Notes under the pieces: generated by a model
Databases searched by the model: none
Told to the model about the DNA's origin: nothing
The model's input: only the letters and a program-made list of their open reading frames with translations
Program-made: the position numbers and the translations under genes
Shown: positions 2,955-62,509 of the stretch, in pieces
Layout: every line of letters begins with the position of its first letter
Position numbering within the stretch: position 1 is the stretch's first letter
Assembly: GCF_040183065.1 (NCBI RefSeq)
Contig: NC_091117.1
Span: 104,690,501 to 104,754,500 of the forward strand
Length of the DNA stretch: 64,000 nucleotides
From: Periplaneta americana
Lineage: Eukaryota > Arthropoda > Insecta > Blattodea > Blattidae
Direction of reading: 5' to 3'

Positions 2955-3451
2955 CTATTCCAGTTTAAATCCCGTATTCTGTTCCGGAAATATTTTCCTG
3001 ATTTTATTCACCACACATGAAGGTATAACGACTCTATTCCTTCTTCCACTTGCTGTCCACGAATTTATCCGAGCAACAAACTGCTTATAAGCAACATATC
3101 GCCACATTTTGTTCGTTGGATTGTCATTTGTAAGTAGATTTTTTTCTGTTTGTTTAGAGTTTTTAGACTAAGATTATGTCTAGTCAAATTTAACACCTCT
3201 GTATCTAAAATAAGTGTTTGAAAATAGGGATTATCGTAACACAGACAATTTTTTTTATCAATTTCACAGCAATACAAACTTTCCATGTCTGTTACCATTA
3301 TTTCATATTTCGTACACTTACACCAGTATTTATTTCTGGCCCTCCCTACCGTTTCAAAAACCTGGTTATTTTTTATTTCGCACTCATATTGATTAGAACG
3401 ACTTGGGTCTGGTAAGGGTTCAAACTGAAAAGATTTATTATTTCGATCCAT
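2955..3451 (-). pseudogene. P2X7 intracellular (C-terminal, zinc-binding) domain protein, one frameshift
   Basis: A stand-alone protein of about 165 codons matching the cytosolic C-terminal 'ballast' domain of vertebrate P2X7 receptors. It starts at ATG 3451 with an FQFEP motif, then a cysteine cluster of the form WCKCTKYE, then YCCEID, then a C plus NPYFQTL block. In another frame follow WRYVAYKQFVARINSW and NRVVIPSCVVNKIRKIFPE, then TGF and a stop at 2955-2957. The two frames meet at a run of seven A near 3139-3145, so a one-base indel there explains the break. This could be a real mutation or a base-calling error. There are no transmembrane segments and no ion channel part. In vertebrates this domain binds zinc and guanine nucleotides; a role here is unknown. 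A second copy lies at 57601-58121. Confidence 0.8.
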
Positions 3452-3825
3452 TATAACCTGTCAACGCCTTCACTGAATGAGTGAATGTATGTAAGACGTG
3501 AACTATTTGTTACGAAGGGACTGCAGATGCATGTTTATCTCATGTCAGCAATAAATTACATGGTTTATACTCGTATTATTCTATTGCATCATAGTTGTTG
3601 AGGCAGATGTTTTGAGCACGGGGGCTATGTTTGAGGAACCTCTAAAACATGTGGATAATCGAATTGCGGTAGTTGATAACTACGAGCTACTTCCAAGACA
3701 TTTCACTGTATATCTTCTCTCCACGATTTTTTCTTCCCGCTGCATGTTTTCTTTTCCACTCATCATTTAGTGTCTTTAGAGATTTGGAGTCTGGAGCTAG
3801 TTACATCTATTTCCACTTTGTAATC
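3452..3825. other. No gene seen
   Basis: Upstream flank of the reverse-strand P2X7-like gene. No TATA box or initiator that I would defend, and no repeat. Confidence 0.4.
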
Positions 3826-15760: not shown

Positions 15761-16686
15761 TATAAAGCAGAACTCACTGCTGTGCTTCCTATGGGGCTTT
15801 TATTATAGCTCGGTTCTGACTCCCACTCCAAATAATTTTGGGCATTTTGGCACACTGCATTAACTTTCAGCAATGTTCCTATTTTTTTTACCAAAATATT
15901 TGTAACAGGGGACTGACAAATATTACAGAAGCGAAACAAAATTTGTAACGCTGACCAAAACACAAAAAATACTTTTTGGGTTCTTAATCTTACTTTCTGT
16001 TACATGTGCTGCATCCTCGAAATCTGATGGATTAGAATTTGAAGTTTCTTCTTCTATTTGAAAAAATGTGTCTAACAGTAAGTCAGTTTCTGGCTCACTC
16101 ACATCAGATTCACCACACACATTTCTTAGCGTCTCGCACCCTACTCACACTGCACAGCTTTGTTTAGATTAGGTTCCTGTGAATTTTCAGCCTCTTCGAG
16201 AACTACACATACGTCAATATTTTCAGCTATAGGTGCATCACTGCAACTTGCTATTGCTTCTTTGACGACCTTCTTTCGTTTAGGCTATAAGCAGGAGAGC
16301 GCGTTGTGTCAGAACTGTCTTGAGGAGATTCTCCTTTCAAAAATAAGGAAGAGACAGCAGTTTTCTTCAGTTTCATAGGAGTTCTATTATCTTTCATTAA
16401 ACGTCTTTTTAGTACAGACCATTCTTCAAAATCAGTTTCATAGTAATGATTCAAACACACAACAGCAATTTTCGATCGTATAAAACCTTTCTTGTTGATT
16501 TTCTTCACAAATCTTTGAGGTGACTTTTCTCTGTTCGGAAATACATGAAATGATATCCCTTCTCCGTGTCCTGCTTTTGCTGTTCCTTCTGAACACAAAA
16601 AAACACAACACCAAGGCATTTTAAACTGTATTACGATATAATTTCTTCTGTTTAGTCTACTGTAGTTTAAAATCACTCATCTAAAG

Positions 16687-54458: not shown

Positions 54459-54839
54459 TATTGTCCGCGCAACTTATCTAGGCAGCTGGGTCCCTTAGTG
54501 CTCTCTCGCTGCCCCGTAGCTATCTGCTGGTTATCTGACCGTCGCTGCCACAGTTATACGTACAGTTACAAAAACATCATTCGGTATTTAATTCCAGTGT
54601 ATTCTATTGGATACGGTAGGTGAAAATATAATGATTTCACAAAATAACAGACATAAATAAATTACATATTTCTTCTTCTTTGTGCAATACAGTATGATCA
54701 CAACTCCAATTTTATTACAATATTCGTATCTGGCCGTGAGCTATGGTAAGCGATACATAAAGTCTTTCAAGTAAAAGCAGAAGTCTGTAGTTGTTGGGTT
54801 TCCAAAAAACATATTCTTCTTCTTCCTCCTCCTCTTCTG

Positions 54840-54849
54840 CTTCTTCTTC

Positions 54850-54881
<32 letters not shown>

Positions 54882-55330
54882 AGTCTTCATCACTGCTGGT
54901 GTCGTCTAGACATATTATAGATTCGTCAATGGTGTCCTCCATTGTGGCGTCATTTTTCCAGCAGTCCTGTACGAAATGCATCACATGGTTGCAGAAACCT
55001 GCATAGTCTTCTTTCGTCACCTGATCAACAGCTGTTGTGGTCGTCTCCTGTGTTGTCTTCAGTGACAGATCACCAGCAGAATTGTTTTCAAGAACGCAGT
55101 GCTTAATCTTGGACCAGCCAGCTCTGTGAAGTTGAGATCGCACATGTATGGTGGGAGCAGAAGTATTGAGTAGCCATGCTGTTTCAGAAGCTGGTCAACT
55201 CTGAATAATTTCTCTACTGGTTTATGTAGGTCAATTAGGTCCATCAAATCACATTTTCTCATAGACTACGAAACAGGAATGGCTTTCTTATCGAGCCATG
55301 ATATCATGTCCTCCTTGACAACATATTCCG
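54840..55330 (-). pseudogene. Tc1/mariner (DDE_3) transposase C-terminus
   Basis: The frame at 55262-55110 has LMDLIDLHKPVEKLFRVDQL, HGYSILLLPPYMCDLNFTEL with the late catalytic region (PPY-xDLNPxE), then a one-base shift. The frame 55143-54840 continues with GWSKIKHCVLENNSAGDLSL, VDQVTKEDYAGFCNHVMHFV and ESIICLDDTSSDEDYDDDDD. The acidic tail runs into a (GAT)n/(GAA)n-like repeat at 54830-54890 that lengthens it. The final acidic catalytic residue region reads NFTEL instead of NPIEL. The first two Asp are not in the window. Confidence 0.85.
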
Positions 55331-56713: not shown

Positions 56714-57600
56714 AGTACCACGTGTTGGCAGCCAAGTTTCAGCACTAATCTTGGAAACAGAGGGTCCTGGTTTGACCCACCAACCCGGTTTGTACTCTTT
56801 CCCTAACCTCTAAATGCTAAATCCTTCTCACCAAAAAATAACGTAATAGAAAGAATCCTGTGAAATAAATTTCACCAGTAGTAAGGAAATTTCAGAGTCC
56901 AGATGGAAAGGAAAGTCAGTCCCATGATGTCTTCTAATCCTCTCTATTTAATGTATTGGTAACTTTTTTTATTAGCACTCATTTTATGAACTAGCAATAA
57001 GAACTTGCACTGTAAATAATATAATCTTTTTTCGCCCTTTGTGAGTAAATAAAATGGATTTGTTTGATTTGGAGTTGTGACCAAATACTCTACATGGAAA
57101 ACAGTATCTGGAGTGATTTATTTATAGCACTTCATACTAGCTGCTAGGGACACTGTCCATTCTTGAGATTTAAAACTAAAACTTCTTGTGGAAAAGCAAA
57201 GGCCCTGTCAACTTAAAAAATGTACTTTTAGGTAGAAAATGATTCTAACAGAGTAGGTGTAGAGATTAGTTTCTGTGAAAACCCGAGTGTCATGCGACAA
57301 ATAGAACAGTGACAATCCACCGATAAAAATTCTTGGTATTACAGAAGTGACATCACAATTCCACTATGAAGCGTAGACCATGGCCATAAGTAGCAGCAAC
57401 TGGGCTTTATCCAGTGTCATCATATATCACAATGACTAGAGATGGGGTAGGAAGGTCTTTTACAATTTCGTGAAAACAACTATGTCCAGGACAATACCGT
57501 TGTATGATAATTGTAAGCTTCTTCCTGCGTAAATCTCTTCCTATTATTAGTGTAAGTTTCTGGTGTCTGGGGTCAAGTCTTATATGAAATAATTATTTCC
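56714..57600. other. No gene seen
   Basis: No motif or repeat boundary that I can support. If the P2X7-like gene below belongs to a transposon, its left end should be here. Confidence 0.4.
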
Positions 57601-58121
57601 ACGAGTCATGGCTGGAATCAATTTGAGCCCAGGAAAGGTGAAATTGTAAGAATATGGGAAGAAAACAGTGAGAATACAAACCAACTAGGAACCATGGACT
57701 GCTGTGTCTGCGGTGAATGTGTGTCTTCAGCAACTCATCAAGAGTATTTCTGTTGCTGTGAAAGTGCAATGATAAGAGATGTAAAGGGAAGTGTTTAGTG
57801 TATTACATTTCATAATGCATTTCATGTTTTTGTACTAAACAGAGACACGTTGAATACTGCTAGGCATGTTATGATGGTGAGAGCAGACTCTAATTTTGAA
57901 AGGGAAGAGTTACAGGAAGTAAATAACAAGAACATATGCTCTATGTTGCTTACAGACAGTTTGTTTACTGGATTAATTCTTGGAATCCCCTCGGAAGAGG
58001 AAACAGAAAAGTCATACCTGCATGCGTAATAAAAGAAATTCATCACAAATAACCGAACCCTGACAATGAGTACAGAAACTTTCAAACTGCTGATAGAAGG
58101 GAAATTTTGTATTTTTATTAA
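57601..58121 (+). pseudogene. P2X7 intracellular (C-terminal, zinc-binding) domain protein, second copy
   Basis: The same domain as at 2955-3451. NQFEP opens the block at 57617, then CCVCGECVSSATHQEYFCCC with a denser cysteine cluster than copy 1. Next, after a stop at 57797-57799, CITFHNAFHVFVLNRDTLNT. A frameshift near 57935 leads to YVAYRQFVYWINSWNPLGRG, NRKVIPACVIKEIHHK, a stop, then PNPDNEYRNFQTADRRE to a stop at 58119-58121. All landmarks of the P2X7 C-terminus (QFEP, WC-C--C, CC-E, C...F, AYRQFV, GRGNRRVIPSC) are present. No channel part. It converges on the 3' end of the THAP transposase 370 bp away. Confidence 0.85.
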
Positions 58122-59807
58122 CTAGAAATTGTTTTTAATTAAAAAGAAATTCACCATAATTTATTATATTTTGCAGCCAACACTCAGAACATTTTAAAAA
58201 TTATCTTAATTGTTACATTTTTTTATTTCACCAATTGTTCTTTCCTTTTAAAAGGTTTTAATAACTTTACCTCCAATAAGCATATTGTTGACCATTTATA
58301 ATTGTTTCAATGTTAGTGATAACTCGATCAGAACAAGTAATCAATTTCGAAAACCTATTACAACCTGCATTTCTTAAAACAAATTCAAAGTTTTAACTGA
58401 TAAATTTATATCAATATACACATAGAAATTTTTATTGGCGAAAATTGTTAAAATTAGATTTAACATTCCTTGAAACTAGAAAAAGAGCAGCTCTTCACAG
58501 CTTCCATAAACTCAGGTGAGGCCACTGGAGCAATGCATCATGTAACATCTTTGGACAGGTAAGGATCTTCCTCCATTTCAATGGTTAACCCATTCACATA
58601 ATGTAATGCCCTGTTCACTATGTCTTTATGGTACTCATGAGTTTCTCTTTCATGAACTGAAGCTACTACTCACTTTTTGTTGGTTTTGAATATTTCATTT
58701 TCTCACCTTTAACATTCCTTTTTGTGTTTGAATTGTAATCCATGGTTGCCATCATTGGTCTTAGTACCATTCCGTCATAACTGAAGTGAACCCTTTTCGA
58801 CTTATATTTTACTGCCACATTGTGTGACAATAATTCTTTGCTTGCTTCAGGCCCTCAATGAAATTTCTATAATTTATTACAGATGATAGTAACATGTAGT
58901 CGTGTGATTGCTGTTTGACCCATTCACTTTCTTCATCTTCAGTACGTTCTCTATGCTCACACTGATGAATAACTTTATTTCCTGTCCAATTATGTAGGCC
59001 TACAGTACAAAATGAAACAACACTGATTAAAATTTTTCAACTAGCACAGTTTCGTCTCCACCACAAGTTTGACAGGACCACCACATGTGGTTTATAATGC
59101 TATCTTTCTAACTTTGTACAAGTGGCGATTTTTTCAATTTCTTTAACCCTCCTACTACCATAGGGTCAATGGCGACCCCACACATACCGTTTGTATCTCC
59201 TTCAAAAAATTTTTATATTTTTTTCCCCTTTTTAACTTTTATTTATTTTAGGTTAATGACACTCCTGTAAAATATTTCTCGTCTACCATTTTCTGTTTCT
59301 GAAATATTGATTTAATTACATCTAGTACCGCAGGGTCAGCATTGACCCCAAAACGACATTTTGTGTGGTTTATAATTTATTGCGGACAAACCACTCGTAA
59401 TTAACTCTTATGCTACCTAGTGGCAGATTATGACACTCTTTAGTCCAGTTCTTCATTTTTTTCGGCCAGATTTCACTAATACTCCAGCAATTAACTGTAT
59501 TTTGCAGTCTAATGAGCAACTGACTATATGACAGCTGCTGTAGGTCTAAATATGCCCAATCATGAAGTATGCAAAATTTTGTTAGAAGAAAATGATGATG
59601 CGAAACATTGTGATGCTACGTTGTTGACGAACGATGACCAGAACCTTTCTGATGACGATGGGGAGATTGACACCATCGAAAGTCTTGAAGATGGTGATGC
59701 TTTGAGTAGTTATTGTGCATCAAGTATCAAATCCTCGTCTGACGATGAGGATAAAAATTTTGACTGCTGCTGTCCAACACATTTTCAAGTCATGGTCACT
59801 GGCATTG

Positions 59808-60560
59808 CTCATGTGGTAGCGTGTTTGCTTGCTGATCTGGAGTTGCGCTTGGGGATCGATTCGATTCCCGCTTGTGCTGATAACTTGGTTGGGTTCATTC
59901 TGAGGTTTTTCCCAACCCTAAGGCGAATGTCAGGTAGTCTCTGGCAAATCTTCTGTCTCATCTCGCCAAATATCATTTCGCTATCACCAATTCCATTGAC
60001 GCTAGATAACCCAGTAGTTGAATAATTTCAAGGGAGAAATTGTTCCGGGGCTTATATCGAATCCGGGACCTTTGGCTAAACGCACCAACACACTACCAAC
60101 TGAGCTACCTAGGAACTCTATTGAGTCAGTGTCTGGTAGAGTTCTTGGGTAGCTCAGTTGGTAGATCGTTGGTGGGTTCAATACCCAGGCCTGAAACAAT
60201 TTTTCCCTTGAAATTATTCAAATCAGCTTCACCTGAAAGCTAGGTTTGCATAATACACGTCACTGTTCATTAACAGAAAACCACAATAAGTCACACAGAG
60301 TTTGTGTGCACTCAGTGTTGTTTGCTTGATGTTTGTCAGCCCACTTTGAGGCCTGTGGATATAAAGGGAGAAATTGAATCTGTGTCTGGTAGAGTTCCTG
60401 GTAGCTCAGTTGGTAGAGCATTGGAGTGTTTAGCCAAAGGTCCCGGGTTCGATACCTGGCCCCAGAACAATTATTCAAATCAGCTTCACAGGGAGCTGTA
60501 TCTGAAAGCTAGATTTGCAACCCAGTAGTTGATACACCATCATCAAATAACCAAGTACAA
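59808..60560 (+). mobile_element. tRNA-derived SINE (type 2), split
   Basis: Head TGGTAGCGTGTTTGCTTGCT with B box-like GATTCGATTCCCG, body GGTTTTTCCCAACCCTAAGG and ATCATTTCGCTATCACCAAT. The tail begins GACGCTAGATAACCCAGTAG at 60000. Its end resumes at 60518 (CAACCCAGTAGTTGATACAC, ATCATCAAATAACC). AACCCAGTAGTTGA is thus duplicated on both sides of a 0.5-kb block of type 3 SINEs. Confidence 0.88.
60023..60517. mobile_element. Cluster of tRNA-derived SINEs (type 3), three units
   Basis: Unit on the reverse strand at about 60023-60116; forward units at about 60121-60258 and 60371-60517. Each has GGTAGCTCAGTTGGTAGA (an intact tRNA-like A box) and, in two, AAGGTCCCGGGTTCGATAC (B box), then CAATTTTTCCCTTGAAATTA or a shortened form, then CAAATCAGCTTCAC and GAAAGCTAG. 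The first two are head to head. Spacer 60259-60370 is unrelated. Confidence 0.9.
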
Positions 60561-62509
60561 AGAAGTAAGTCATATTCTTACTGTATAATCTCCTAAAATA
60601 GAATAAAGCCTTCCAGTTCATCAGCTCTAGCACATGTCCCTATCACTAGGTGCTCTCGGATTGAATTCCCAGTGTTGACTGAAATAATAATTGTGATGGA
60701 TAAAATCGGAAGATTAAGACTCTTATCGGGGCACTTCTGGGCACTTATGTTGACCGAAAACATTCAAGCAGGTGCTGAAGTTGTGCAAAGTTTACATGTC
60801 AAGACCATTTGATATGCAAACAATATAGTAATTGATTGGAGAAGTCCTTCGAAGCACATATGAAAAATGTTTGAAAAATGTATTACCTCTCTACACATCA
60901 GTATCAATAACCATATAAAAATGTTAATATTGTAGTTAAATAATTATTTTATGAAAAAATTATAATGAAAACCATGGCTGAAGACTAATTTTGTGCATAA
61001 ATGTCAGCATTGAAAGTGTAAGTATTTTTTTTTTCCGATTTTTTTAATACTGGGGTCAACATTGACCCCATGGTATTCAGTGTCACAAAAAATGTCTGGT
61101 AGTACAAGGTACAAGGGTTAAACTTTTTAGCTAGATACTCAGAAAGGTGCCACACAAACTTGTGTGTTATTTGCGGAAATTTCGTCCTTAGTAGTTTTCG
61201 GACCTCTCGATGGCGACAGGAAAGAAAAGTTCCATTTCTACACCTTTTCAAGTAATCTAGATAATATTTTGTCGCATGCTGGCTTCTCCAAATCCCCATT
61301 AATCTGACCCTTTTGAAGTACAACAAAGTCAATTATTTCGTCAGTGGTAATGTCCATGACTTTGTACTTTGCTGAAAATCCTGGGCTATCAAACTGACTA
61401 TTCCCAGCTAACCAAACCTTTTTATTTTGTTTACCTGCGATTATATTCTTATGTTGTTGTAACCACACATTCTTTATCGCAGGTGCGACATAACTGTTGA
61501 TAATGTTATAAAACGAAGTAGGAGACATGAAGTGCAAATTGAAAGTCTTGGCAAAGGATCTGAAAACACTCAAACTTACACTGTTAGTGTAAAGAGATGT
61601 TGCTAATTTAACAGTAAGAGAGGATTTCTTTACGTTTTTTTGCGACCGCCAGATATATTTATGGCGAGCACTGCATTCAGATTCGACAGATAATGAAGGG
61701 CCCTAGATCTCGGCTGCACAGAAATTACAGTTTTTCCGCATTTATAACAAATGACGAACAGAGAGAAGGGCACACTTGTCTATTTTAAAATTGTTATATT
61801 TCAGTAAAACTGCTTCTCCTATGGAGTCAGTGTACACGTCACTAATGCTACTAGCTGTTTCACAAAAGGACAGATCCATATCATTTACCTCCTCACTTTC
61901 AGAAGTTTCACAGTTCGAAATACCCCTGAAAATTTCACTCCCCAGCGCACACTGCACACTTAATTCATTGCAATTTGTATGTGTGTTTAAATTGGCATCA
62001 TCACTTGTTCTTGGATATCACTGGCCCCTGCTTCTTCGTTCACTGTCTCTCATAGTTCACTGCATGAACTTGTAAATGACTAGTCTATTGCTTGTTTTAT
62101 AATCTTCTTCCTTACGTATGCACCAGTATTTCTCTGACTTTGATGACGTTCATTAATTTCACCCAGTTTCAATTTTTAAAGAGGGGATTTCACTTTTTTT
62201 AAAACCAGTCTACTTGTTTTGATACGCAGAAGTACATTTCTTAGCTGGAATGTAATTTAAAAATCTTCTGGAGTGGAGTGTTCAGAACAAATAATGGAAT
62301 TCCGGTTGGGTTCGAAATTACGCTAATTTATTCGATTCACCCATGCTTTGAATCTATTCGGTGAGCTTTCGCGATTAGGAAATTCATTAATACTTATTCC
62401 AAGGTCTGTGTTTATAGTATTTGAACACCCAAAAACACAACAATGAGGCATTTCCGATAGAATAGCATACAAACTTATATATCAAATAATAAGACACTAA
62501 TTGCTTCAC

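Follow-up and report, generated by a model that had tools for sequence, protein, structure and literature searches.

A decayed KolX-type ballast-domain gene in a probable dead Kolobok transposon of Periplaneta americana

The stretch of Periplaneta americana DNA analysed here (NC_091117.1, positions 104,690,501 to 104,754,500; 64,000 nucleotides, below called the window) carries at positions 57601–58121 of the + strand a broken gene for the ballast domain of the P2X7 cytoplasmic tail, and this gene is most probably (about 0.94) what remains of the KolX accessory gene of a Kol0-type Kolobok DNA transposon that is now dead. According to the passages of Kojima and Bao (2022; PMC9587614) on these elements, the Kol0 (Kolobok0) group encodes a second protein, KolX, whose fold is that of the P2X7 cytoplasmic ballast, including 7 conserved cysteines and 2 zinc ions. 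The probable placement in Kol0, as judged from sequence, rests jointly on the TTAA target site, the AG-type ends, the THAP domain, the DxxH motif and KolX. Since KolX was already described by these authors, the window gene is no new kind; it is a further KolX of the described type, found in an insect-like genome.

Homology of the broken gene to the P2X7 ballast domain

The landmark motifs of the P2X7 tail claimed in the original prediction were all found on the + strand, namely QFEP, CxCxxC (as CCVCGEC), the cysteine cluster (FCCCES), AYRQFV and GRGNRKVIPAC, though they are split over two frames, one of which holds QFEP, the cysteine cluster and the sequence up to about 57936, while the other runs from AYRQFV to the end. 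The probable start codon at 57608 lies in a frame different from that of QFEP, the QFEP-to-cysteine frame is interrupted by a stop at 57796–57798, the frame changes near 57937–57942, and the AYRQFV frame contains a premature stop at 58050–58052, the normal stop of the family being at 58119–58121.

57601–58121, + strand: KolX gene (P2X7 ballast, P2RX7_C domain), broken; from motifs, Pfam and tblastn with the relative L044

Against the Pfam family PF20478 (P2RX7_C; cut-off 23.5 bits) three pieces of the window gene gave 17.2 bits, 12.7 bits and no match, and the window copy is absent from the 41 P2RX7_C matches found genome-wide. The expected agreement with the profile of the P2X7 tail did not reach the cut-off in the window pieces and stood firmly in an unbroken relative (L044:4243–4761, 173 aa), which scored 63.7 bits with E 2.9e-17. 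This relative, which is one and the same copy as L002, has 83% DNA identity with window 57201–59146 and as a query matched the window at E 2e-69 over two pieces; therefore, the resemblance is beyond chance. A slice of the same copy (as L002) was aligned to a P2X7 chain in PDB (residues 473–590, E 1.5e-4), and further P2X7 chains followed in that list at E 0.0016–0.0055, interspersed with proteasome matches from E 0.0023. A chance likeness of a cysteine-rich frame to the ballast domain could draw on the window pieces, which by themselves stay below the Pfam cut-off; it is already refuted by the score of L044 and by the match of the window to L044, and its probability is practically nil. The window motifs are homologous to the P2X7 ballast domain. 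P2RX7_C was the sole Pfam family in the intact 173-aa frame, where no P2X channel domain was found, which confirms a ballast-type domain free of the channel, and the end of the element lies about 0.4 kb upstream of KolX.

The surrounding element and its copies in the genome

The supposed stand-alone gene proved to belong to a Kolobok-type DNA transposon as its accessory gene, placed beside the terminus and convergent with the transposase: KolX reads inward from the left end and a THAP and DDE-type transposase inward from the right end. The following parts were recognized in the window copy.

57198–57219, + strand: left transposon terminus, terminal inverted repeat from 57200 resembling AGGCCCTGTCAACTTAAAAA; from the aligned left boundary, inverted copies closing both ends of relatives
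58675–59018, - strand: C-terminal pieces of the transposase with Cys/His finger remnants; E 7e-21 and 9e-28 in tblastn with pieces of L044
59147–61117, no strand: nested TTAA-flanked insertion with ends CCCT...AGGG, piggyBac-like, which splits the transposase gene; TTAA at 59143–59146 and 61118–61121
61120–61170, - strand: DxxH region of the transposase, which reads VWH (D lost; DVWH in L044); motif inspection
61241–61702, - strand: DDE-type core piece of the transposase; at least 150 genome match rows including itself, and motif inspection
61745–62017, - strand: N-terminal linker piece of the transposase; relatives found with it
62260–62454, - strand: N-terminal THAP domain of the transposase, broken; PF05485 and tblastn
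62573, no strand: right end, where homology stops; other copies extend about 150 bp further, up to a right terminus that is missing here

The relatives share their left edge at window 57198, and many of them extend to 62573 and about 150 bp further, where the inverted terminus closes the right end (e.g., L014, L015, L017, L018, and L020). The left TTAA target site of the window copy has decayed to GCAA, while TTAA followed by AGGCCCTGTCAACTT-like sequence is intact in 17 of 21 left-end rows, which were hand-picked from the alignment of relatives and include the window and both names of the copy L002/L044. The termini AGG...CCT follow the 5'-RR...YY-3' pattern, unlike piggyBac, and it is by 5'-RR...YY-3' that Kolobok termini are defined in the corresponding passage of PMC9587614. 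The nested insertion is absent from L044, which has an empty site with a single TTAA at this place. The insertion itself includes a tRNA-like stretch (Rfam tRNA match 60400–60461).

The transposase is damaged along its length. With the PF05485 THAP model (cut-off 23.9 bits) the relatives L014 and L045 scored 30.7 and 32.8 bits, and the window piece 62326–62481 and L051 remained below the cut-off with 20.3 and 22.7 bits. L044 retains both the DVWH motif and the GDG of the first catalytic region, which are damaged in the window, where the residue aligned to the first D of L044 (region 61379–61408) is not D. The L044 piece of the putative DDD/E core carries the motif GDGQFNSPGFSAKY, and the window copy of this core is broken. 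No transposase-core model was matched in Pfam, and the Cys/His remnants (INH...FH...QC.H) are scattered over frames in the window as well as in L044.

When the genome of the window (3.23 Gb) was searched at the DNA level with the query 56800–59100, a search in which the best 40 of 184 candidates were scored, at least 75 match rows including the window were obtained, with identities of 74–92% outside it. Deletion derivatives are frequent among the copies; in these, window position 58438 is followed by about 50–200 bp and then by about 61770. Copy number and shared flanks had been named earlier as the means to tell mobile-element cargo from a host family, and the many copies with shared flanks fall on the cargo side. 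Flanks were examined for 36 of the 41 P2RX7_C matches (34 distinct places), the other 5 being without flanks. A transposase piece was located beside 26 of the 36 rows, convergent with KolX in 24 (for L018 the convergent order rests on the alignment of the relatives and their ends) and on the same strand in 2, and 6 more rows (L003, L004, L047, L048, and L055 twice) had only the TTAA-AGG terminus. In a rough control, 0.085 of random window points outside the element had a transposase piece within 2 kb. As a separate observation, in L039–L042, on different contigs, a repeat of at least 9.9 kb, 98–99% identical, encloses a short KolX-bearing Kolobok derivative.

In a test based on coordinates, which made no use of the flanks and compared matches of the best 150 of 189 KolX candidates with those of the best 150 of 626 DDE candidates (150 matches), 14 of 92 KolX matches were placed at most 10 kb from a DDE-core match, whereas random placement gave 0.08 on average and never more than 2 in 2000 trials, this random control being approximate with contigs assumed to be about 190 Mb. 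The 14 rows correspond to 13 loci, as two rows belong to one locus (C9), and the window element is one of the rows. At all 13 loci KolX lies 3' of the transposase; the two genes converge at 6 of them (KolX, then transposase) and are in tandem at 7, where the transposase precedes KolX on its own strand. Both gene orders are possibly new, as neither is stated in the Kojima and Bao passages.

Several families are more diverged. The KolX protein identity to L044 is 52% in L045, about 25–35% in L051 and L047, about 32–37% in L048, and 44% in L056. In L045, L051, L047, and L048 a TTAA-AGG terminus precedes the KolX domain match by about 300–345 bp, as TTAA-AGGCCCTGTCC in L045 and as TTAA-AGGG in the other three; L051 also carries a THAP piece convergent with KolX (22.7 bits, slightly below the cut-off) and a matching right terminus, judged by eye. 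A long inverted repeat is present in L048. The window contains a second broken KolX sequence:

2958–3460, - strand: more diverged, frame-shifted KolX fragment of family E; P2RX7_C 29.3 bits and 21.2 bits, the latter below the cut-off

In its relatives L053 and L059, transposase pieces precede KolX on its own strand. The frames between THAP and KolX of the family-B element (L052/L045, C10:50355000–50365200) putatively resemble a piggyBac transposase, and therefore TTAA elements may have landed inside Kolobok elements more than once. Scans of IMG/VR (one protein, alignments) and GTDB returned pattern matches and no confirmed relative outside the genome.

Elsewhere in the window a second THAP piece was observed at 16428–16622 on the - strand (28.4 bits, above the Pfam cut-off), with no match to the KolX queries used within 10 kb of it. 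Overlapping frames at 54718–55265 on the - strand contain a long series of Asp and Glu residues, and part of them putatively resembles "LPPYxCDLN", a motif of other DDE transposases.

Selection on KolX and competing origins

Silent (pS) and replacement (pN) differences were counted by the Nei-Gojobori method on stop-free pieces and on pieces with stops skipped. Between families, 14 of 16 KolX pairs show purifying selection, with pS 0.72–0.89 and pN 0.25–0.48, and the THAP piece compared between families A and B behaves alike (pS 0.67–0.71, pN 0.35–0.39). These figures are read to mean that KolX, like the transposase, was constrained along the lineages of active elements. Within family A four KolX pairs gave a replacement-to-silent ratio (omega) of 0.85–1.07, one of the four shorter pairs of this family had pN 0.12 against pS 0.09, and a second pair of family C offered zero silent change for comparison; free decay after insertion finds support only within part of family A, and different active sources may have given rise to some of the copies.

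Several points weigh against the assignment of the gene to a dead Kol0 element. Neither a transposase piece nor an AGG terminus accompanies 4 of the 36 flanked rows (L022, L023, L027, and L057), of which L022 and L023 do show a TTAAGGG match that was left uncounted, and 4 of the 26 transposase-bearing rows (L014, L044, L045, and L051) supplied the transposase queries. The rough control comes from one window only, its distance of 2 kb not matched to the flank lengths. Two pairs between families are weaker, Bc-Ec with pS 0.59 and Bc-Cc with pS 0.50, both of less than 50 codons. The decay within families is mixed, as omega is 0.63 in one pair of family C and 0.17–0.56 in three pairs of family E, and 3 of the 4 shorter family-A pairs have pN 0.05–0.07 against pS 0.15–0.18. 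A complete, unbroken element was not seen among the loci examined.

Two other origins were considered. The copies could belong to a host gene family of Nanor-like stand-alone ballast proteins, placed by chance in transposon-rich DNA; passages of PMC7016195 report such proteins from Metazoa at large, a hemipteran and a tick among them, several P2RX7_C matches are without an internal stop, and pN remains below pS in some pairs within families. Flanks common to the copies out to precise TTAA-bounded ends speak against this origin, as do the convergent order in 24 of the 26 transposase-bearing rows, the terminus upstream of KolX that is kept in diverged families, and the four family-A pairs with no silent-over-replacement excess, so that it is considered very improbable. 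An intact host copy might be among the 5 of 41 matches without flanks.

Slightly less probable still is a host ballast gene captured once and carried as passive cargo by one transposon family. It would account for short deletion derivatives that retain the KolX side and lose most of the transposase; it does not agree with families A to D, which at about 25–53% protein identity to A all have TTAA-AGG upstream of KolX, with the purifying selection that 14 of 16 pairs show between families, or with the KolX-bearing elements published for many animals, as stated in PMC9587614.

With KolX regarded as the second gene of a Kol0-type element, a sequence of events can be proposed. In an active family the transposase would bind the termini via its THAP domain and would cut and paste the element at TTAA, and KolX would serve as a zinc-binding helper protein of transposition. 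For this putative helper role the odds appear even when it is set against others, e.g., a role against host silencing. Selection would retain KolX in the lineages of active elements, and inserted copies such as that of the window would then break. It is also conceivable, at slightly less than even odds, that KolX is a required partner module whose orientation within the element was reversed in Kol0 evolution, the tandem order being a ready route to fusion genes.

Relation to known ballast-domain systems

The Kol0 KolX elements, as described in the PMC9587614 passages, are alike in having two genes, TTAA sites, RR termini, a ballast-domain protein as the second product, and a DDD/E-type transposase, the DDD/E core being putative in the present element; a difference is that the window copy is truncated and its genes are broken. 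The XKol elements of Xenopus (PMC6004289) share TTAA, AG-starting termini (one subfamily AGGACATGTCAACC), and a transposase with THAP, DDE, and H2CH parts, of which the DDE core and the H2CH finger are putative in the present element; they differ in that "P2X" is absent from the main text of that paper and its passages on the element contain no second ballast gene. The term search of PMC13228809 and PMC5753468 found nothing on a KolX-type gene in the text covered.

The stand-alone ZCD/ballast proteins, Nanor, and the P2X7 tail, as given in parts of Rump et al. 2020 (PMC7016195), have in common with the present gene WCxCxxC, CC, Cys-Ile-Thr, AYR, and IPSC; they are, in contrast, presented there as host genes, and "transpos" occurs nowhere in the main text; a tick protein with a domain printed "TAHP", read here as THAP, fits the transposon picture. 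The debated origin of the ballast domain, to which the original prediction referred, has a published answer of the transposon kind: the relevant passages of PMC9587614 derive P2X7 from the fusion of a P2X4-like gene and KolX, consider Nanor likely to be another domesticated KolX, and remark that the transposon connection was not pointed out by the earlier study of Rump et al.

In summary, the findings from an insect-like genome agree with and support the published derivation of the P2X7 ballast domain from a transposon gene, and they add evidence that KolX was under selection between element families. With the transposase as partner there is a concrete setting in which to ask for the function of the ballast domain, which binds zinc and nucleotides, before its union with an ion channel. 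If the proposed role of the tandem order is true, a THAP transposase followed by a ballast gene would suit fusions like that of the THAP-ballast protein in the tick, and the same order may also suggest, by analogy, a route to the P2X-ballast fusion.
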